From contig NZ_CP048834.1 of NCBI RefSeq assembly GCF_012971745.1, positions 62,001 to 126,000 of the forward strand: 64,000 nucleotides of DNA, written 5' to 3'. The notes below the pieces were generated by a model. That model did not search any database, had not been told where the DNA came from, and was given only the letters and a program-made list of their open reading frames with translations. Every line of letters starts with the position of its first letter. Positions within the stretch are counted from its first letter, which is position 1. Positions 52,442-64,000 of this stretch are shown here, one piece after another. The translations under genes were made by a program, and so were the position numbers. The stretch comes from Starkeya sp. ORNL1 (GTDB lineage: Bacteria > Pseudomonadota > Alphaproteobacteria > Rhizobiales > Xanthobacteraceae).

Positions 52442-53650
52442 GTGCCCCGGACCGCCTTGGCGAGCTGGATTAGGAGGCGTTGTTGGGAGCCCGATTTGGG
52501 AGCCGCTGAAGCCCCGCTGCTGGCGATGGCCCGCCATGGGCGTGAGTTGGTGTTCGTCGGCAACGGCCGATGGACGGCGGCGCATTCGCACGCGCTCGAA
52601 TCCGTGGTGGATGCGTGCCTCGAGGAATCCCGTTCCTCCACCGGGCCGACAAGCGCCGCGCGGGTCGACCTGTCCGGCGTCCGCATCATCGACACAGTCG
52701 GCGCGTTGCTGCTCGACCGCGTGCTGCGCACGCTCGAGGAAGACGGGGTGCACTCGCAACTGGTCGGGCTTGACCGGCGTTTCCAGCCCTTGCTGGACGA
52801 GGTGCAGCGGGGCTGCCACGAGGTGCCGCCGCCACGCCAGCACCGCAACCCGCTGGTAGGCAGCCTCTATGTCACCGGCCGGTCGGTGATGGGTGGCTAC
52901 GAGGACGCGGTCCAGTTCCTGGGTTTCGTCGGTGCGGTGGTGATCGCGTTCCTGCGGGTGCTGATACGCCCGCAGAATTTCCGCTGGACCTCGATGGTCT
53001 ATCATCTGGAGCGGGTAGGGCTCAGGGCGGTGCCGATCATCGCCCTCATCACCTTCCTGATCGGCTGCATCATCGCGCAGCAGGGCATCTTCAATTTCCG
53101 CAGGTTCGGTGCGACCACCTATGTGGTCGACATGGTCGGCATCCTCACGCTGCGCGAACTCGGCGTGCTGATTGTCTCCATCATGGTCGCCGGCCGTTCC
53201 GGCAGCGCCTTCACCGCCGAACTCGGCTCGATGAAGATGCGCGAGGAGGTGGACGCGCTGCGGGTGATGGGGTTCGACCCCAACGAGGTGCTGGTGCTGC
53301 CGCGACTGGTCGCGCTGATCATTGCGGTGCCGCTGCTCACCTTCATCGGCAACATGTGCGCGCTGTTCGGCGGTGGCCTGGTGTCGTGGCTCTACGGCAG
53401 CATCACGCCGACTATCTTCATGGCCCGGCTGCAGGAAGCCATCGGGCTGAACACCTTCGAGGTCGGCATGATCAAGGCGCCGTTCATGGCGGCCATCATC
53501 GGCCTCATCTCCTGCATGGAGGGCATGCGGGTCGGCGGCAGCGCGGAATCGCTTGGCGCCAAGACCACCGCCGCGGTGGTGAAGTCGATCTTCCTGGTGA
53601 TCGTGGTGGACGGACTGTTCGCCATGTTCTTCGCCGCCGTGAATCTGTGA
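52442..53650 (+). CDS. mlaE: MlaE-type lipid ABC transporter permease with N-terminal STAS domain
   Basis: 402 aa with a GTG start and AAGAGG ribosome site. The N-terminal STAS domain (about residues 30-120) contains ARVDLSGVRIIDTVGALLLD and plays the MlaB role in cis. The C-terminal MlaE permease has IALITFLIGCIIAQQG, ELGVLIVSIMVAGRSGSAFTAELGSMKMREEVDAL (read in parts) and FMAAIIGLISCMEG. First gene of mlaE-mlaF-mlaD-lipoprotein. It moves phospholipids between the membranes. Confidence 0.93.
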   Translation: MPRTALASWIRRRCWEPDLGAAEAPLLAMARHGRELVFVGNGRWTAAHSHALESVVDACLEESRSSTGPTSAARVDLSGVRIIDTVGALLLDRVLRTLEEDGVHSQLVGLDRRFQPLLDEVQRGCHEVPPPRQHRNPLVGSLYVTGRSVMGGYEDAVQFLGFVGAVVIAFLRVLIRPQNFRWTSMVYHLERVGLRAVPIIALITFLIGCIIAQQGIFNFRRFGATTYVVDMVGILTLRELGVLIVSIMVAGRSGSAFTAELGSMKMREEVDALRVMGFDPNEVLVLPRLVALIIAVPLLTFIGNMCALFGGGLVSWLYGSITPTIFMARLQEAIGLNTFEVGMIKAPFMAAIIGLISCMEGMRVGGSAESLGAKTTAAVVKSIFLVIVVDGLFAMFFAAVNL

Positions 53651-53657
53651 GGCGAGC

Positions 53658-54485
53658 GTGGCGCAGGGCATGAACGGCACCAATGGCGCGCATCACGCGG
53701 GCGTGCACCCGGGCGAGCCGATCATCCGCGTGCGCGACCTCGTGGTCGGCTTCGGCGACCGCATCATCCTCGATCATTTGTCGCTCGACGTGATGCCGGG
53801 CGAGATCCTCGGCTTCGTCGGCGCTTCGGGCGGCGGCAAGTCGGTGCTGACCCGCACCATTCTCGGCCTGGTGCCGAAGCGCGCCGGAACCGTCGAGGTG
53901 TTCAGCGAGGATCTCGATACGCTCGGCTTTGAGCAAAAGCGCCTGCTGGAGCAGCGCTGGGGCGTGCTGTTCCAGCAGGGCGCGCTGTTCTCCTCGCTGA
54001 GCGTGAAGCAGAACATTCAGTTCCCGATGCGGGAATATCTCGATTTGTCGCCACGGCTGATGGACGAACTCGCCATCGCCAAGATCGAGATGGTGGGCCT
54101 CTCGCCGGACGTTGCCGAGAAGGCGCCCTCCGAGCTTTCCGGCGGCATGATCAAGCGCGCCGCGCTGGCGCGCGCGCTGGCGCTCGATCCGGAGATATTG
54201 TTCCTCGACGAGCCGACCTCGGGCCTCGATCCGATCGGTGCCGGCGAGTTCGACGAACTTATCGGCACATTGCAGCAGACTTTGGGGCTGACCGTATTCA
54301 TGGTAACCCACGATCTGGACAGCCTTCACACGGTGTGCGACCGCATCGCGGCGCTGGCCGAAGGCAAGGTGATCGCGGTCGGGCCCATCGAGACGATGCT
54401 GGCCTCCGATCATCCCTGGATCTCCGCCTATTTCCGCGGCAAGCGGGCACGGGCGGTGGGTATCGCAAACGAAGGGCGGCGGTGA
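53658..54485 (+). CDS. mlaF: MlaF-type ABC transporter ATPase
   Basis: 275 aa, GTG start 7 bases after mlaE. Walker A GASGGGKS, Q-loop FQQGALFSSLSV, signature LSGGMIKRAALARA, Walker B ILFLDEPTSGLDP and switch His VTHDLDS. The Q-loop GALFSSL pattern is characteristic of Mla/Ttg2A ATPases. It powers lipid transport by MlaE. Confidence 0.95.
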   Translation: MAQGMNGTNGAHHAGVHPGEPIIRVRDLVVGFGDRIILDHLSLDVMPGEILGFVGASGGGKSVLTRTILGLVPKRAGTVEVFSEDLDTLGFEQKRLLEQRWGVLFQQGALFSSLSVKQNIQFPMREYLDLSPRLMDELAIAKIEMVGLSPDVAEKAPSELSGGMIKRAALARALALDPEILFLDEPTSGLDPIGAGEFDELIGTLQQTLGLTVFMVTHDLDSLHTVCDRIAALAEGKVIAVGPIETMLASDHPWISAYFRGKRARAVGIANEGRR

Positions 54486-54495
54486 GACGTAACGC

Positions 54496-55788
54496 ATGGA
54501 AACACGCGCCAATTACACCATCATCGGCCTTTTCACCCTCGCCATCGTCGCGGGAGCGTTCGCCTTCGTGTGGTGGTTCACCGGATCGAGCAATCGCGGC
54601 CCGCGCGTCTCCTATGACGTCATTTTCGACGGTACGGTGGGCGGCCTGCAGCGTGGCTCGGCCGTTACCTTCAACGGCATACCGGTCGGCGAAGTGACGG
54701 GATTGCGGCTCGATGCCGCCGATCCGCGCCGGGTGATCGCCACCATCGCGGTGCCGCCGGGCACGCCGGTGAAGGCCGACACCCGCGCCGAGCTCAATGT
54801 GACGGTGCTGACCGGCCTCGGCTCGGTCGGCCTCGTCGGCGGCAGTCCCAATGCGCCGCCGCTGCCGGCGCCGCCTGACGGCCAGTTGCAGACGCTGCGG
54901 GCCGACGCCTCGGGCGTTCAGGACCTGATGCAGGGTGCCAAGGAGGTGATGGGCCGGGTCGACGCCATTGCCCGCCGGGTCGACAATCTGCTCGCCGACA
55001 ACGAGACCAAGATCAATTCGGTCATCACCAATTTCGATAAATTCTCCCAGGCGCTCGGCAATAATTCCGACAACATCAACGGCTTCCTGTCCGACATCGG
55101 CGGTGCTGCCAAGCGGATCGACACGCTGGCGCAGACACTCGACAAGATCGCCACCGCCATCGACCCGAACAAGGTCGGCGACACCATCGACAATGTGCAG
55201 AAATTCACCAAGCAGCTTGGCGATTCGAGCGACAAGATCCGCTCCTTCATCGACGATGCCAGTGCGATTGCGTCGACCTTCCGCGGCTTCTCCGCCCAGC
55301 TCGAGACCACCTTCAACCGGGTCGACCAGATCACCCAGGCCATCGACCCCAACAAGATCGGCAAGGCGGTCGGCAATTTCGAGACCTTCTCGCAGACGCT
55401 GGCCAATCGCGCGCCCGATACCGATTCGCTGCTGAAGAACGCCTCCGAGTTGTCCGCCAAGCTCAACGGCATGGCCAACAAGCTCGACACCATCCTCGAC
55501 AACGTCAATTCAATGACGACCAGCGAGGAAGGCAAGGGCATGTTCGCGCAAGTGTCCAGCGCGGCCGAGGAAGTGCGCAAGCTCGCCGCCAATCTCGACG
55601 TGCGCACCGCCGAGCTCTCCAAGAACCTCAACCAGTTCGCCGGGCCGGGTTTGCGTCAATATGAGGCGCTGGCCTCGGACGGACGGCGCACGCTGGCCGA
55701 AATCGAGCGGGTTTTCCGCAATCTTGAGCGCAATCCCCGTCAGTTCATCTTTGGCGGCTCATCCGTTCCCAGCTACAGTGGGCGGTAA
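54496..55788 (+). CDS. mlaD: MlaD-type MCE protein with long helical extension
   Basis: 430 aa. One N-terminal TM (about residues 8-27) precedes a single MCE domain (about 35-115) with YDVIFDGTVGGLQRGSAVTFNGIPVGEV (read in parts). It is followed by roughly 300 residues of Asn/Asp/Lys-rich amphipathic helix. Two copies of a unit starting AIDPNK (about residues 222 and 284) are internal duplications. E. coli MlaD is about 180 aa, so this protein is closer in build to PqiB/LetB-like or actinobacterial Mce proteins. It could form a longer periplasmic tunnel or bundle. Confidence 0.93.
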   Translation: METRANYTIIGLFTLAIVAGAFAFVWWFTGSSNRGPRVSYDVIFDGTVGGLQRGSAVTFNGIPVGEVTGLRLDAADPRRVIATIAVPPGTPVKADTRAELNVTVLTGLGSVGLVGGSPNAPPLPAPPDGQLQTLRADASGVQDLMQGAKEVMGRVDAIARRVDNLLADNETKINSVITNFDKFSQALGNNSDNINGFLSDIGGAAKRIDTLAQTLDKIATAIDPNKVGDTIDNVQKFTKQLGDSSDKIRSFIDDASAIASTFRGFSAQLETTFNRVDQITQAIDPNKIGKAVGNFETFSQTLANRAPDTDSLLKNASELSAKLNGMANKLDTILDNVNSMTTSEEGKGMFAQVSSAAEEVRKLAANLDVRTAELSKNLNQFAGPGLRQYEALASDGRRTLAEIERVFRNLERNPRQFIFGGSSVPSYSGR

Positions 55789-55835
55789 GCGATGGGGTGG
55801 CGCTTGACGTCTATCTGGGGCAGGGAGCTTAACGC

Positions 55836-56465
55836 GTGACCGGGTTTGAGCGTTTCGGGCGGACGGCGCGCATTGCGGCCGTCATTACGCTCCAGTTGTC
55901 GCTCGCGTCCGCGCTGGGCGGTTGCGCTGCCTTGCTGGGCGGCGGCAGCAAGGCGGTGCCGACCTTCGACCTCACCGCGCCGAGCAATTTCACCGCGCCG
56001 CGCACCGGCACCGGCCAGCTTCTGGTCGGTGCGCCGACCGCGCTCGCCGTGCTCGATACCGAGAAGATCCTGGTCGAGCCGGCGCCGGGCCAGATCACCT
56101 ATCTGTCCGACGCGCAATGGAGCGACCGGCTGCCGGCGCTGTTCCAGGCTCGGCTGATCGAATCCTTCGAAAACGGCAATCGCGCCCGCTCGGTATCACG
56201 CCCCGGCAGCGGCGTGACCGCCGACTATGCGCTGCTGACCGACCTGCGCTCCTTCGGCATCCAGGCCTACCAGGGCAATGAGGCGGTGGTCGAGGTCTCC
56301 GCCAAGATCGTGAACGACCGCACCGGCCGCATCGCCGCGGCGCAGGTGTTCAAGGCGCGCGTCGCGGCCGAGGGCACGGCCGGGGCGCAGGCCACCAGGG
56401 CGCTCGACCAGGCCTCTGACCAGGTGTTCGTCGAAATGGTGAAGTGGGCCTCCGCCCGGTTCTGA
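55836..56465 (+). CDS. ABC-type transport auxiliary lipoprotein (PqiC/DUF330-like)
   Basis: 209 aa, GTG start 47 bases after mlaD. The lipobox LGGCAALLG makes it a lipoprotein. The ABC_trans_aux-like fold is indicated by FDLTAPSNF, RTGTGQLLVGAPTALAVLDTEKILVEP (read in parts), WSDRLPALFQARLIESF and the C-terminal FVEMVKWASA. In the outer membrane it probably completes the lipid pathway, as PqiC does for PqiB, replacing the MlaA/MlaC parts not found here. Confidence 0.88.
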   Translation: MTGFERFGRTARIAAVITLQLSLASALGGCAALLGGGSKAVPTFDLTAPSNFTAPRTGTGQLLVGAPTALAVLDTEKILVEPAPGQITYLSDAQWSDRLPALFQARLIESFENGNRARSVSRPGSGVTADYALLTDLRSFGIQAYQGNEAVVEVSAKIVNDRTGRIAAAQVFKARVAAEGTAGAQATRALDQASDQVFVEMVKWASARF

Positions 56466-58036: not shown

Positions 58037-61000
58037 TCAGTCGAAGCGGCCGGCGGCGTGGGCGAGCAGGGTGTAGACCTTGCCGGTATCCGACGTCAGG
58101 TAGGTCTTGGTCAGCACCTGGCCACGATCGTCGCGTGCCACCTGGTCGAGCAGGCGCTCGAACTCGGCGATGTAGCGGTCGACCGTCTCGTGGAACTCCG
58201 GATCGCGGCGGTATTTGCGGCGGATTTCCTCGAAGGTCTGCTGGCCCTGCATGGTGTAGAGCCGGCGGGTGAAGACGTTGCGCTCGCCGCGCTTGTAGCG
58301 CTCCCACAGCTCCACCGCGGCCTCATGATCAATCATGCGGGCGATGTCGACCGAGAGCGAGTCGAGCGACTCGATGGTGTGGTGCACCGGACGCTCCGGC
58401 TGGCCGGCCAGCGGATCCTCGGTGCGCGCCGCCGGGCGTGCCGGGGCGGGTTGCTCGACGGGGGCGGCAGGCGCCGTCTCCGCGCTGTCGCCCGACGCCC
58501 GGGCCAGCAGTTCGGAGAGCCAGCCGCCGCGGGTATCGGCCAGCGGCGGGGCGGCGGTGCGCGGAGCCGCAGCTGCCGATGCGGCGGGCGGGGTTGCCGC
58601 GGCCGGGGCAGGGGTGGGAGCAGGCGTCGGCGGAGCCGCCGGACGCGGAGCCGGCTGTGCGGGCGCGGCCTGCGTGGGAGCGGGCTGCGCGGCGACTGGC
58701 GCCGGGGCGGCGGGCTCGGGACGCGGGGCCGGTGCCGCAGCAGGCTCGCTGCGGCTGTAGCTGCTGAAGCGCGCCGGGGCGACCGGACCGCTCTCCGCGA
58801 CAGCGGCCGAGGTGGCGCCGAGACGGTTGCGCGGTGCCGGCTCGGCGATGTCGAGCGCGCGACCCTGGCGGGCCACGATCTCGTTGAGCTCGGCGAGCGC
58901 CTTGATCTGCTCGGCGACGGCGCGACGCATGGTGGCGGCGCTGGCTTCCGTCTCGGTCGGCAGTTCGAGCACGCCGCGCTTCAGTTCCTGGCGCGTCGTC
59001 TCCAGCACGCGCTGGACGTCGGCGGCCGAGTCCTTCAGCTCCTTTGCGGCTTCGCCGAAGCCCTGGGTCGCCTTGCCCATCAGCGCGCTGACCTCGCCGA
59101 CCGTCTTCTCATAGGCGGCACGCAGCGCGGCGGCGGTGCGCTCGCGCTCCTCCTCCGAAGTCTTGCGCACCTGGTCCTGCTGATTGGCGATGGCTTCGGT
59201 GGAGCGGGCGGTGGAGTCGGCGACCACGCGCGAAATTTCGTGCGCGCGGCCCTCGGCGCTCTGCAGGGCGTCCTGCAGCAGCGAGGCGAAATGCGCGAGC
59301 CGGGTGTCCAGTTCCTCGGCCTTGGCGGCGAGGGCGTCGGACAGTCCGGTGATCGACTCGCGGCGGTCGACCAGCGTCGAGTCGATGCGCAGATGCGTGT
59401 CGTTGAGCGCGCCGGCAACGCCGGAGATCACCCCGGCCTGCTCGGTGAAGCGCTGGGTGAGCCCGGCGACTTCCTCCAGCACCCCGGTCGAGACGCCGCG
59501 CAGATCCTTGATCTGGTCTTCGAGGCGGTCGGAGGTGAGGCGGGTGGCGTCCTCGACATGGGCAACGGTGTTGCGGAACACGTCGAGCCGCTCGGAGATG
59601 GCGCCCTCGATGCTGGCGAGATTGGCGGCGGCGCCTGCCAGCACCTGCTGGAGCAGCCCGTTCATCTCGCCGAGACGATCGAGCACGCCATTGACGTCGC
59701 CCTTGACGGCGTCGTTGGTGGCCGCGATCCCGGCGATGGCGTTGCGGCCGCTCTCCGAGATGGCCTCGATCAGGCCGGAACCGCGATTCTCCAGCGCGCC
59801 GAGCAGGTCGTCGCCGACGCGGCTGAACTCGGTCGCGGTGGTGCCCGCGGTCAGGCGCAGGGTGTCGACCAGCGCGCCGGCCCGGGCCTCGATGGCACCG
59901 AGCAGTTCGTCGCTGGCGCGGGTGATGTCGCCCGTCGCCTGGCCGGCGGTCTGCTGCACCGCGCCGACGAGGCTGACCGCGCGGCCATCGAGGCCGGAGA
60001 GCAGTTCCTCGCCGATGCGGGCGATCTCGCCACCAGTCTCGCCGGCGGTCAGGCGCATCGCCTCGATGAGGGCGCCAGCGCGCCCGTCAATGCCGGCGAC
60101 CAGCTCTTCGCCGATGCGGGCGAGTTCGCCGGAGGCTTCCCCGGCGGTGTCGCGCACCACGCTGACGAGGTTGCTGGTGCGGGTGTCGAGGCCGGCGGCG
60201 AACTCTTCGCTGAGCCGCGCAAGCTCGCCGGTAGCGCCGCCCGTGCTCTGCTGCACGGCGCTGACGAGGTTGCCGGCGCGGTTGTCGAACTCGGCGATGA
60301 AGGCCTCGCCAATGCGGGCGATCTCGCCCGTCGTGTTGCCGGTGGTCTCCTGCATGACGGCGAGCAGATTGCCGGTACGGGTATCGAGGCTGCTGACGAA
60401 TTCCTCGCTGAGACGGGCGATCTCGCCGGAGGCGCCACCCGTGCTCTGCTGGATGGCGGCGACGATGTTGCCGGTGCGGCTGTCGAGGTCGGCGACGAAA
60501 GCCTCGCTGAGGCGGGCGATCTCGCCGGAAGCGCCGCCGGTGCTCTGCTGGATCGCGGCGACGATGTTGCCGGCGCGGTTGTCGAGGTCGGCGACGAAAG
60601 CCTCGCTGAGGCGGGCGATCTCGCCCGAGGCGCCGCCGGTGCTCTGCTGGATCGCGGTGACGATGTTGCCGGCGCGGTCGTCAAGGCTGGCGACGAAGGC
60701 TTCGCTGAGGCGCGCCAGCTCGCCGATGGTGCCGCCGGTGGTCTGCTGCACGGCGGCCACCAGGCTGCCGGTGCGGCCATCGAGGCTGCTCACCAGCTCC
60801 TCGCCGATGCGGGCGATCTCGCCGGCGACCGAGCCGGTGGCCTGCTGCACGGCGGACACCAGCCCGCTGGTGCGGCTCTCCAGATTGGTAAGCAGGTCGT
60901 CGCTGAAGCGGGCGACCTCGCCGGCGGCGTCGCCGGTGGAGCGCTGGAGCGCCGCGACGAGTTCGCCGGTGCGGTTCTCCATATTGCCGAGCAGGGTCTC

Positions 61001-64000
61001 GCCGAGGCGGGCCAACTCGCCGTTGGTTTCAGTCGAGGTGCGCTGGAAGGTCTCCAGCACGCCGGAACTGCGGCTCTCGATGGAATCGAGCAAGGTCTCG
61101 CCGAGGCGGGCGAGCTCGGCATTGGTTTCGGTCGAGGTGCGCTGGAAGGTTTGCAGCACGCCGGCACTGCGGCTGTCGATGGTATCGAGCAGAGTTTCGC
61201 CGATGCGGGCGAGCTCGCTGTTGGTCTCGCCGGAGGTGCGCTGGAAGGCCTCCAGCACGCCGGCGCTGCGGCTCTCGATGGTATCGAGCAGGGTCTCGCC
61301 GACGCGGGTGAGCTCGCTGTTGGTCTCGCCGGAGGTGCGCTGGAAGGCCTCGAGAACGCCGGCGCTGCGGCTCTCGATGGTATCGAGCAGGGTCTCGCCG
61401 ACGCGGGTGAGCTCGCTATTGGTCGCGTTAGAGGTGCGCTGGAAGCTCTCCAGCACGCCGGCGGCGCGGCTCTCGATGGTCTCGATCATCGCACCGCTGG
61501 CGCGCAGCATCTCGTCGGCGCGGCCGGCGGTCGCCGCCTCGAAGGCAGTGACGACGCCGTTGGAGCGGGTCTCCAGCGTGTGCAGCAAGGTGTCGCTGGC
61601 ACGCAGGATATCGTCGACGGCGCCGCCGCGGGTGTGCTCCAGGGCCTGGAGCAGGCCGGCGCGGTGATTGTCGATCGCGGCGAGCACTTCGCCACTGGCG
61701 CGGGTGATCTCGCTGGCAATGCCGACGCTGCGGTCATTGAGCGCGCCGAGGAAGCCATTGCCGCTGTCGTCGACCAGGCGCGCCAGTTCGGCGGTGCGGG
61801 CGTCGAACAGGGTGGCGACTTCGCCGGCGCGATCGAGCAGATGGCGGCTGACATTGTCGGCCAGCAGATTGAGCGTGCGCTCCATCGCGCCGGTCTCGTC
61901 GCGCAGTTGCCCGCTGACCGACTCGATGCGGTGGGCGAGCGAGTCGGCGAGGCCGGCGCCGCGCACCTCGATCGAGGTGGCGACGGTTTCCAGGCGGCCG
62001 ACCACCAGCTCCTCGAAGCGGCTGACGCGCGCATCGAGCGTGCCGGCGACTTCCAGCGCGCGGTTGCCGAGGGTGCGGTCGGCGAAGTCGAGCCGCTCTG
62101 TCAGCGCATCGGTCACCACCTTGGTGCGGTCGACGAAGAAGCCGTCGAGGGTGCGCAGCGAACCGTCCATGGTTTCGCTGGCGAGCTTGGTGCCGTCGGT
62201 CACGGTGCGGGCGAACTCGACGGTGCGGTTGGCCAGCGTCTCGTTGAGGCTGTGCACGCGGCGGTCGAGCGCGGCCTCGATATTGGCGAGGCGCTCGTCG
62301 AGCGCGTTGCTGACGCTGAGGACGCGGGTGTCGAGCACGTTCTCGACGATGCCGAGCCGCTGGTCGAGCGCGATCGCGACTTCCGAGGTCTTGCTGGAGA
62401 CGCGTTCGTCGAAGCCGGCGAGATTGACCTCCATGCTCCGGGTGACGGCATCGACCCGCTGGGTGATCTGGTTGACCAGGCCGCCGCCGTGGGTCTTCAC
62501 GGTCTCGTCGAAGCTGCGCAGCCCATCCGTGATCTGGCGGCCGAGCACGCCGGAATCATTGCCGATGCGGTTGGCGAGCTCGCCGCCGCGCACCGAGATG
62601 GTCTCCTCGAACGCCTTGAGGCGGGCGTTCAGCATCTCCTTCATCGCCTCGCCCTTGGCGCCGATGGTGGAGGAGAGCATTTCCGCGGTTTCGCGGAACT
62701 GGTCGGTGACCTTGCCGCCGCGGGTGCCGATCGCCTGCGCCACATTGGCGCCGATCTGCTCCATGCGCTCGGTCATCATGTCGCTCTTCGACGACAGGTC
62801 GATCGCCCACCGCTCTGCCGCGCTTTCCAGCGACTGGGTCACGCCCGCGCCGGCGTCGGAGAGCTGGTCGGTAACGCGCTGGCCGGTCTCGGCCAGCAGG
62901 CGCTCCAGTTCGACGCCGCGCACCGCGACGGTGTCGTAGATGCGGTTGCCGGTGTCGGCGATGCGGTCGGCGAGGTCGCCGCCACGTACCGTGATGGTCT
63001 CGGCGACGCGGGTGCCGGTCTCCTCGAGCTTGCGCACGACGTCGCCGCCGCGCAGCGACAGGTCGAGCACCAGAGCTTCGCCGGTGCTCTTGAGGGTATG
63101 GTTGACCTCGTTGGCACGCACCGCGATCTCGTCGGCGAGGCGGGTGCCGGTGTCGACCAGGGCGTTGGTGATCTCGTCCGAGCGCGAGGTCAGCGTCTCG
63201 GTCAGCGTCAGCGTGGTCGCGGTGAGCTTGGCGCCCATCTCGTCGGTGCGGCTGGTGACGACGTCGGACAGCTCGGTCGCGGTACGCAGCAGATGCGAGC
63301 CGATCTCGTCGGTACGCGCCGCCAGCGTCTCGGCGAGGTCGGAGGTGACACCCGAAAGCCGACGGCTGATGTCGTCGGTCTTCGAGGTCAGGGTGGTGAT
63401 GAGGTGCTCGCTGGCGCCGGTGAGGTTCTCGTTCACCTCGGTGCCGGTGACGTGCAGGCGGTCGATCAGGTCGCCGCCCTTGTCGGTGAGCGCATCGATG
63501 ATGGTGTCGCCCACGCGGCCGAGCGCCAGAGTGATGTGCTCGCCCTTGTCCGCCAGCGTATGGGTGACGCGGTCGGCGGCCTCCATCACGCTCGCATTGA
63601 TGCGCTCGCTGACGCCTTCGACCTCGTGGGAGAAGGAGACGTGGGCGCCGGCGATGGAATCGCGGATGCGGTCGGCATGCGAGAGGATGGTCTCGCGCTC
63701 GGACACCAGCTCCTCGATGAGGCTGCGCACGCGCATCTCGTTTTCGTCATAGGCGCGCTCGAGCACGGCGACTTCGCTGCGCACCATGGCTTCGAGTTCG
63801 CCGGCGCGGGCAATGGTGCGCTCGACGCCGTCGCCCATGGCGGCGACCTCGCGACGGATGGCTTCGCCGACGGTGACGACGGAATCCATCGCCACTGCAT
63901 CGGGCTCGGCGAGGCGGACGGCGACCTGCGCCATGGAATGCGCGACGATGCGCATTTCCTGGGTGCGGCTGACCATGCCGGCGAGCACGAAGAAGAAGAT
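58037..64000 (-). CDS. giant repetitive membrane-anchored protein, growth pole ring (GPR)-like; N-terminus outside window
   Basis: 1987 aa visible, entering from the right edge within a hydrophobic segment (IFFFVLAGMV), so the N-terminus and part of a TM region are missing. From about 150 to 1500 it is amphipathic helix built from 22-residue units (GTRVAETITVRGGDLADR type) and then about twenty 33-residue units (LSEAFVADLDNRAGNI type), all multiples of 11 as in apolipoprotein-like helices. A coiled coil, a Pro/Ala-rich linker (about 1690-1850) and a conserved C-terminal domain (ESLDSLSVDIARMIDHEAA, VFTRRLYTMQGQ, YRRDPEFHETVDRY) follow. Size and layout match the Agrobacterium GPR protein, needed for polar growth in Hyphomicrobiales. 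The identity is inferred from architecture. Confidence 0.85.
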   Translation of the reverse strand: MFFFVLAGMVSRTQEMRIVAHSMAQVAVRLAEPDAVAMDSVVTVGEAIRREVAAMGDGVERTIARAGELEAMVRSEVAVLERAYDENEMRVRSLIEELVSERETILSHADRIRDSIAGAHVSFSHEVEGVSERINASVMEAADRVTHTLADKGEHITLALGRVGDTIIDALTDKGGDLIDRLHVTGTEVNENLTGASEHLITTLTSKTDDISRRLSGVTSDLAETLAARTDEIGSHLLRTATELSDVVTSRTDEMGAKLTATTLTLTETLTSRSDEITNALVDTGTRLADEIAVRANEVNHTLKSTGEALVLDLSLRGGDVVRKLEETGTRVAETITVRGGDLADRIADTGNRIYDTVAVRGVELERLLAETGQRVTDQLSDAGAGVTQSLESAAERWAIDLSSKSDMMTERMEQIGANVAQAIGTRGGKVTDQFRETAEMLSSTIGAKGEAMKEMLNARLKAFEETISVRGGELANRIGNDSGVLGRQITDGLRSFDETVKTHGGGLVNQITQRVDAVTRSMEVNLAGFDERVSSKTSEVAIALDQRLGIVENVLDTRVLSVSNALDERLANIEAALDRRVHSLNETLANRTVEFARTVTDGTKLASETMDGSLRTLDGFFVDRTKVVTDALTERLDFADRTLGNRALEVAGTLDARVSRFEELVVGRLETVATSIEVRGAGLADSLAHRIESVSGQLRDETGAMERTLNLLADNVSRHLLDRAGEVATLFDARTAELARLVDDSGNGFLGALNDRSVGIASEITRASGEVLAAIDNHRAGLLQALEHTRGGAVDDILRASDTLLHTLETRSNGVVTAFEAATAGRADEMLRASGAMIETIESRAAGVLESFQRTSNATNSELTRVGETLLDTIESRSAGVLEAFQRTSGETNSELTRVGETLLDTIESRSAGVLEAFQRTSGETNSELARIGETLLDTIDSRSAGVLQTFQRTSTETNAELARLGETLLDSIESRSSGVLETFQRTSTETNGELARLGETLLGNMENRTGELVAALQRSTGDAAGEVARFSDDLLTNLESRTSGLVSAVQQATGSVAGEIARIGEELVSSLDGRTGSLVAAVQQTTGGTIGELARLSEAFVASLDDRAGNIVTAIQQSTGGASGEIARLSEAFVADLDNRAGNIVAAIQQSTGGASGEIARLSEAFVADLDSRTGNIVAAIQQSTGGASGEIARLSEEFVSSLDTRTGNLLAVMQETTGNTTGEIARIGEAFIAEFDNRAGNLVSAVQQSTGGATGELARLSEEFAAGLDTRTSNLVSVVRDTAGEASGELARIGEELVAGIDGRAGALIEAMRLTAGETGGEIARIGEELLSGLDGRAVSLVGAVQQTAGQATGDITRASDELLGAIEARAGALVDTLRLTAGTTATEFSRVGDDLLGALENRGSGLIEAISESGRNAIAGIAATNDAVKGDVNGVLDRLGEMNGLLQQVLAGAAANLASIEGAISERLDVFRNTVAHVEDATRLTSDRLEDQIKDLRGVSTGVLEEVAGLTQRFTEQAGVISGVAGALNDTHLRIDSTLVDRRESITGLSDALAAKAEELDTRLAHFASLLQDALQSAEGRAHEISRVVADSTARSTEAIANQQDQVRKTSEEERERTAAALRAAYEKTVGEVSALMGKATQGFGEAAKELKDSAADVQRVLETTRQELKRGVLELPTETEASAATMRRAVAEQIKALAELNEIVARQGRALDIAEPAPRNRLGATSAAVAESGPVAPARFSSYSRSEPAAAPAPRPEPAAPAPVAAQPAPTQAAPAQPAPRPAAPPTPAPTPAPAAATPPAASAAAAPRTAAPPLADTRGGWLSELLARASGDSAETAPAAPVEQPAPARPAARTEDPLAGQPERPVHHTIESLDSLSVDIARMIDHEAAVELWERYKRGERNVFTRRLYTMQGQQTFEEIRRKYRRDPEFHETVDRYIAEFERLLDQVARDDRGQVLTKTYLTSDTGKVYTLLAHAAGRFD
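59725..61705 (-). repeat. array of about twenty 99-bp coding repeats
   Basis: In-frame 33-codon units of the giant gene. Neighbouring copies are nearly identical in places, for example 60414-60710 (LSEAFVADLD units) and 61222-61419 (VGETLLDTIES units). Others have diverged to about half identity. The period is exactly 99 bp across the array. Confidence 0.8.

Follow-up and report, generated by a model that had tools for sequence, protein, structure and literature searches.

A large gene at the edge of the window

The window is a stretch of 64,000 nucleotides (G000:C1:62001-126000) from a genome assembled as one contig of 6,286,188 bases. On its minus strand a frame at 58037..64000 is open up to the window edge and represents the C-terminal part of one gene. 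Because the window sits within a one-contig genome, the N-terminus – which the initial annotation had left to adjacent DNA – could be read directly: the gene starts with an ATG at L004:14744 (G000:C1:126744), in the adjoining stretch beyond the window, and the full protein has 2235 amino acids. Its start resembles that of named relatives (KK.QDP.EAALSAI.EAL-like).

From N- to C-terminus the protein consists of a Pro/Arg/Glu-rich N-terminus, two transmembrane segments (residues ∼197–221 and 228–261 by hydropathy), a conserved block, a hendecad rod, a neck, a Pro/Ala linker carrying a W motif and a C-terminal domain. The linker and the conserved C-terminal domain had been proposed from the visible residues and both are present. 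The features within the window are:

58037..64000, minus strand: visible part of the gpr/rgsE-like gene (residues 249–2235 and stop); the gene start is outside the window
63647..63973, minus strand: conserved block (residues 258–366) that follows the second transmembrane segment, with the N anchor LE.AY..NE; the transmembrane segments are mostly outside the window
59750..63646, minus strand: hendecad rod in a single unbroken 11/3 register (∼residues 367–1665)
62651..63310, minus strand: 22-residue repeat zone (residues 479–698), lag-22 identity 0.27
60011..61330, minus strand: 33-residue repeat zone (residues 1139–1578), lag-33 identity 0.61–0.64
58715..59977, minus strand: neck (∼residues 1590–2010) of predicted long helices, for the most part lacking a hendecad register; close to its end lies the C anchor MRR.V..QI.AL
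58400..58714, minus strand: Pro/Ala-rich linker (∼residues 2011–2115)
58493..58528, minus strand: W motif GGWLSELLARAS within the linker; most named relatives, among them Rhizobiaceae, have a counterpart
58040..58387, minus strand: C-terminal domain (residues 2120–2235), seven predicted helices, the family hallmark

An AlphaFold2 model of the C-terminal domain, built on 32 sequences, has seven helices (pLDDT 83, pTM 0.76). No solved structure is convincingly like it, and the local Pfam copy returned no family match for it at E 0.01.

On the plus strand an antisense frame of 2260 codons (window 58058–64000; L004:8058–14840) stays open opposite the gene. The two frames are aligned codon by codon, and the openness follows from the gene's codon usage: TTA, CTA and TCA account for 0 of 2236 codons, at a GC content of 70%.

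A member of the GPR/RgsE family

The initial annotation had called the protein GPR-like. Comparison with a 2089-amino-acid homolog from S. meliloti Ak57 (L267:3160–9429, in a record from a plasmid collection, where it is annotated as a kinesin) agrees: 83 of 116 residues (72%) are identical in the C-terminal domain, 91 of 177 in the block of transmembrane segments plus anchor, and 55 of 161 in the neck. Membership of this known family is, on these alignments, well supported. The 3.7-Mb record that holds the homolog is labelled pSymB, although a replicon this large has chromosome size. From its match in species, length and anatomy the 2089-residue protein is taken to be RgsE (SMc00190), which excerpts of PMC7327166 describe as a growing-pole protein of 2089 amino acids with 42% identity to GPR.

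RgsE and the protein described here share two N-terminal transmembrane segments, a rod matching PF01442 (257.8 bits over 12 stretches in S. meliloti; 148.1 bits over nine stretches here, against a cutoff of 90), a Pro-rich linker, the C-terminal domain and a nearby ferredoxin gene. They differ in length (2089 versus 2235 residues), in the Hpt gene, which was not found upstream of the present gene, and in the purity of the rod. Within the S. meliloti rod, residues 1081–1300 contain a 29-residue repeat (lag identity 0.39), and an Ensifer relative has one likewise; the S. meliloti rod middle has a period of 3.657 and the neck one of 3.618. GPR itself (Agrobacterium tumefaciens Atu1348, 2115 amino acids) has by its published anatomy the same two transmembrane segments, a helix of ∼1700 residues, a P-rich region and an essential C-terminus; it is tied to the present protein only through RgsE and through Pararhizobium and Ensifer relatives.

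Among the matches listed for the C-terminal domain, Ancylobacter, Azorhizobium, Aquabacter and Xanthobacteraceae bacterium 501b are the closest that carry a name, which suggests that the present organism belongs to this group. Within the order the domain occurs in 284 of 297 genomes, as a single copy in 282 of the 284; five of the 13 genomes without it are of good quality. One genome (G054) gave a match in the first survey and none with the profile. Of 385 genomes in a class-wide sample, 139 gave a match to the domain, five of the 139 being from the same order. Distant holders already in print belong to Emcibacterales and Rhodospirillales (PMC7327166, excerpts); Sphingomonas parapaucimobilis, also outside the order, has a homolog of 774 amino acids with a C-terminal domain 39% identical.

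A ferredoxin gene lies within 10 kb on either side of the gene in 69 of 80 named loci, as it does in S. meliloti and here, where it is 3.7 kb upstream and encodes a product 62.9% identical to that of S. meliloti. It is a supporting trait, and in print not a defining one. Other neighbors in S. meliloti, namely the Hpt, folP and DUF922 genes, were not detected around the present gene.

Searches of NCBIfam gave no other identity. ZorA2 scored just 61 of the 700 bits needed, and a literature search on the ZorA tail returned nothing relevant; of two coiled-coil models, SpiroCoCo reached 36.3 of 75 bits, and LA_3659, at its cutoff (36.3 against 36), covered the rod alone. Nine homologs from outside the order likewise drew no polarity-protein name, only similar weak coiled-coil matches.

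A single hendecad register

Across residues 259–2020 hydrophobicity has a period of 3.666 with a power of 151, where 200 shuffles reached at most 10.1 and the power at 3.5 is 0.2. In each of 19 windows 110 residues long (starts 367–1555) the phase of the 11/3 wave lies between −15 and +9 degrees, so that the wave holds in phase over ∼1300 residues, ∼118 hendecads without slip. The regular hendecad period noted at the outset is therefore real, and runs in one phase throughout the rod.

The reported shift from 22- to 33-residue repeats is visible in the lag identities of the two zones, where composition alone predicts 0.084. However, the 33-residue units are not the exact copies first described: successive units are 61–64% identical, and TRF finds a 99-base DNA repeat family with 74–84% matches. 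Repeat type varies among relatives. A strong 33-residue zone is present in four of 12 (Ancylobacter defluvii, A. sonchi, A. radicis and Aquabacter sp. P-9; local identity 0.61–0.69), while others have a 22-residue zone in its place, among them L036 and L116, the latter in the same genus by the tool's code.

Residues 1579–2018 leave the 11/3 wave. Their best periods of 3.61–3.62 rule out a heptad coil for the neck, of which the structure model is weak (pTM 0.23).

Rod length changes in steps of eleven

The analysis covered genes at 232 loci (the present one, 80 named, 111 others of the order and 40 outside it), of which 12 were cut off at the 5′ end. Rod length was expressed as the distance from the motif after the second transmembrane segment to the motif at the end of the neck. 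This anchor distance was obtained for 184 of 220 genes (71 named, including the present one, 108 others of the order and five outside). In the present protein it is 1617 residues, that is, 147 hendecads, or about 240 nm as an α-helix; in the 179 sequences of the order it ranges from 315 to 2350 residues.

Taken modulo 11, the 179 distances are far from uniform (χ² 166.4, 10 df, p about 1e-30). The sequences are related and not independent, and other moduli serve as the control for kinship: 11 of them (7–10, 12–15, 18, 25 and 29) gave χ²/df of 0.5–1.8, the lowest p values being 0.017 (25) and 0.058 (10), the rest higher. A first test with plain motifs agrees (χ² 91.4, 10 df, 52 named sequences including the present one); it left out 16 complete sequences in which the motif was missed, nine cut off and four not parsed.

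The steps are apparent among close relatives. In 16 Bosea-type genomes 12 distinct distances, between 1430 and 1701 residues, fall into residue classes 0 (ten) and 7 (two) only, and 87 of 115 differing pairs are apart by a multiple of 11. The 14 Microvirga genomes give nine distinct distances, in classes 10 (six) and 6 (three), with multiples of 11 in 52 of 85 pairs; three of four Ancylobacter distances share a class, as do two of three in Hoeflea. In both Bosea and Microvirga the two residue classes are one heptad apart. Rod length therefore changes by whole hendecads and now and then by a heptad, as is required if the helix is to stay in register. The suggestion that length is set by repeat number thus finds support.

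The variable part can be localized. At distances of at least 700 residues the middle of the rod has a period of 3.65–3.68 in 150 of 153 sequences. Below 700 (n = 26) there was too little middle to measure in 19 sequences, and two of the other seven are at 3.65–3.68. For the 380 residues leading up to the C anchor, the median period is 3.606–3.618 in all four size classes. The part that varies is thus a hendecad module between fixed ends.

The modulo-11 length structure in 179 sequences of the order is new here. In the literature searched, with subscription papers and preprints outside its scope, we found neither the length rule nor the change of period across the class nor the short homologs beside MreB described below; in the main text of PMC8262873 the words repeat, hendecad and periodic each occur zero times. 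The GPR family thereby gains a measurable design rule: constant ends, and a helical module with 11-residue increments.

The rod period inside and outside the order

In a set of 118 homologs from the order, weighted to divergent families, 93 are at 11/3, 17 near 29/8 and six at 3.57–3.60, with two not measured; in another set four of 129 are off 11/3. Outside the order none of 40 loci has an 11/3 rod. Here 35 are at 3.55–3.60, most at 3.57 (near 25/7) and a few nearer 18/5, and five are near 29/8; in several, identity peaks at a lag of 25, 50 or 75. These outside homologs have a median length of 1121 amino acids and, in 27 of 39, two predicted transmembrane segments in the N-terminal part. A tree of the conserved block, made by a quick method and with long branches, sets the order apart by a branch of support 98 and requires 14 changes of period class. 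Independent pairs showed no significant relation between period class and rod length.

A helical period above ∼3.63 gives a right-handed supercoil and one below it a left-handed supercoil. The handedness of a supercoil formed by these proteins would therefore be expected to differ between the order and its outside relatives.

Long rods and MreB

No MreB was found in the present genome: the best match is partial, at 59.6 bits, where full-length MreB elsewhere scores 379–510 bits. Outside the order full-length MreB is present in 37 of the 40 genomes tested (40 of 43 with further genomes). Inside it the count is 0 of 38 in the first set, the present genome included, and three of 22 and 16 of 60 in further sets, together with one split and one partial copy.

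Of 112 genomes of the order with a fetched gene (the present one included), 98 were searched for MreB, three of them without a distance; the other 14 have long genes. MreB is present in 13 of the 95 whose rod was measured, always at distances of 440–891 residues. MreB thus occurs in 13 of 30 genomes below a distance of 900 and in 0 of 65 at or above it, a cut picked after the data were seen. The median distance is 510 with MreB (n = 13) and 1337.5 without (n = 82; Mann–Whitney p 1.4e-5). Taken by family the difference has p 0.001 (8 versus 36); on supported branches only four independent pairs are available, and a sign test on these is not significant. That long rods occur only without MreB is an association, and may be a phylogenetic one.

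The converse does not hold. Short rods without MreB exist in families f3, f4, f15, f31, f34, f46 and f51 and in single genomes of f2 and f32; losing MreB is thus not in itself enough for a long rod. Six further MreB-bearing genomes of the order, and G009 with a piece of MreB, lack a measured rod. The genomes of the order without the C-terminal domain have no full-length MreB in its stead; one has MreB in two pieces. Six of these genomes, G036, G078 and G113 (f36) and G068, G135 and G208 (f23), have neither a detectable C-terminal domain nor full-length MreB.

The four MreB-bearing Rhizobiales species are said to lack Rgs homologs (PMC7327166). In contrast, such genomes here hold a short homolog. 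The published picture is refined accordingly: RgsE relatives stand alongside full-length MreB in most genomes tested outside the order, and inside it in the 13 with a measured rod.

A probable pole scaffold with a rod of variable length

The family bears on how bacteria that lack MreB position and size their growth zone. On the observed family membership, anatomy, register and length steps, and an MreB search that found none, we think it probable that the gene is orthologous to GPR/RgsE and belongs to an MreB-less bacterium of the Hyphomicrobiales (Rhizobiales), close to Ancylobacter, and that its product is an anchored pole scaffold with a hendecad rod. The two transmembrane helices would hold the protein in the inner membrane. 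Between the conserved ends would run a continuous helix of variable length in strict 11/3 register, most likely pairing with itself to give a right-handed coiled-coil rod. Anchor and rod together would assemble the scaffold at the growing pole, while the neck, the flexible Pro/Ala linker and the small helical domain at the free end would carry the recruiting function and act on partners. This division of labor comes from putting the GPR truncation phenotypes together with the anatomy: in excerpts of PMC8262873, GPR without its C-terminal 332 residues still forms paired foci or a ring and loses function, and removal of the last ten residues gives curved cells. Rod length would evolve as whole hendecads are gained and lost, since steps of any other size would break the register. 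By analogy with Agrobacterium a polar ring may form in the present organism too; our search found no papers on polar growth in Ancylobacter.

Whether the length itself matters is less certain. Repeat number could be a neutral by-product of slippage and recombination, with selection keeping the register and length having no function, and we put this at somewhat below an even chance. Wide variation among close relatives speaks for it, as in the distances of Bosea, and near relatives differ even in repeat type (22 residues in L116 and L036, 33 in L042–L044); drift does not, however, predict that the longest rods are found only in MreB-less genomes, although relatedness may explain this.

A different reading of the same period is that it marks a single amphipathic helix lying on the membrane, apolipoprotein-like, in a protein that sorts lipids at the pole. 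Both PF01442 (Apolipoprotein) and PF07464 exceed their cutoffs in the present protein. Human apolipoprotein A-IV, a soluble lipid carrier with 11/22-residue periodicity, matches the same Pfam family; it is not known to have transmembrane helices or the C-terminal domain of the GPR family. However, PF01442 may reward any 11/22 periodicity, and the composition of the rod leans the other way: large hydrophobic residues make up 26.6%, Pro 0.23%, net charge is −1.33 per 22 residues, the hydrophobic moment is modest and 0.8% of windows pass a lipid-binding threshold. In residues 479–1138 large hydrophobics dominate (92–100%) at just two of 11 positions, and in the 33-residue zone (65–100%) at three of 11. 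A stripe this narrow, an acidic surface and few prolines are more in keeping with a coiled coil than with a helix bound to lipid. Of the two forms offered by the initial annotation, a long rod or a membrane-hugging helix, we therefore favor the first; the second appears unlikely.

The dimensions tell against a straight rod. An α-helix rises 0.15 nm per residue, and 1700 residues would thus span 255 nm. Excerpts of PMC8262873 give the 1700 extended residues of GPR as 600 nm; its authors favor a lipid role and view GPR as a folded-up apolipoprotein-like protein, with foci just 50 nm wide. A straight 240-nm rod does not fit foci of that width unless it is folded.

A bolder version of the scaffold reading has GPR act as a strut whose number of hendecads determines growth-zone geometry. 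In this version an ancestral left-handed 25/7 rod beside MreB would have become a right-handed 11/3 rod in the Hyphomicrobiales, with long versions only where MreB was lost. This is speculative, and we would not expect it to hold in full; if true, species with more repeats should have a proportionately larger ring or wider growth zone. That the protein is instead a TipN-like marker of the new pole, and not a growth scaffold, is very improbable: TipN of Caulobacter, compared by description only, is presented as the analogous protein (882 amino acids; PMC13170164, excerpts) and resembles the family in polar role and in the size class of the shorter homologs, and the length and paired transmembrane segments of the outside homologs speak for it, but the direct similarity is to RgsE.

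The anchor distances in the order constitute a natural length series, which makes a length-to-geometry test possible; insertions of 11 residues would keep the register, and insertions of 3–5 would break it.

Gene neighborhood

The neighborhood offers several minor observations. A gene similar to that of the S. meliloti Hpt-domain protein was matched in 42 of the 80 named loci (L036–L115); in the 40 matches listed it is divergent to the gpr-like gene, ∼90–1200 bases upstream in 39 and 5 kb away in one, and Sphingomonas too has an annotated Hpt gene at this place. Three neighbors of the present gene other than the ferredoxin gene were compared with the named loci (L004:16602–17909, L004:14987–15229 and L004:7492–7929): neither the S8-type protease nor the SnoaL-like gene (names assigned by eye) has a match in the 80, and the small divergent upstream gene matches in five, against the 69 of the ferredoxin gene. 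A cluster of the Mla/MCE type (permease, ATPase, MCE protein and lipoprotein, also named by eye) occupies 52442–56465 of the window and ends ∼1.6 kb from the gene.
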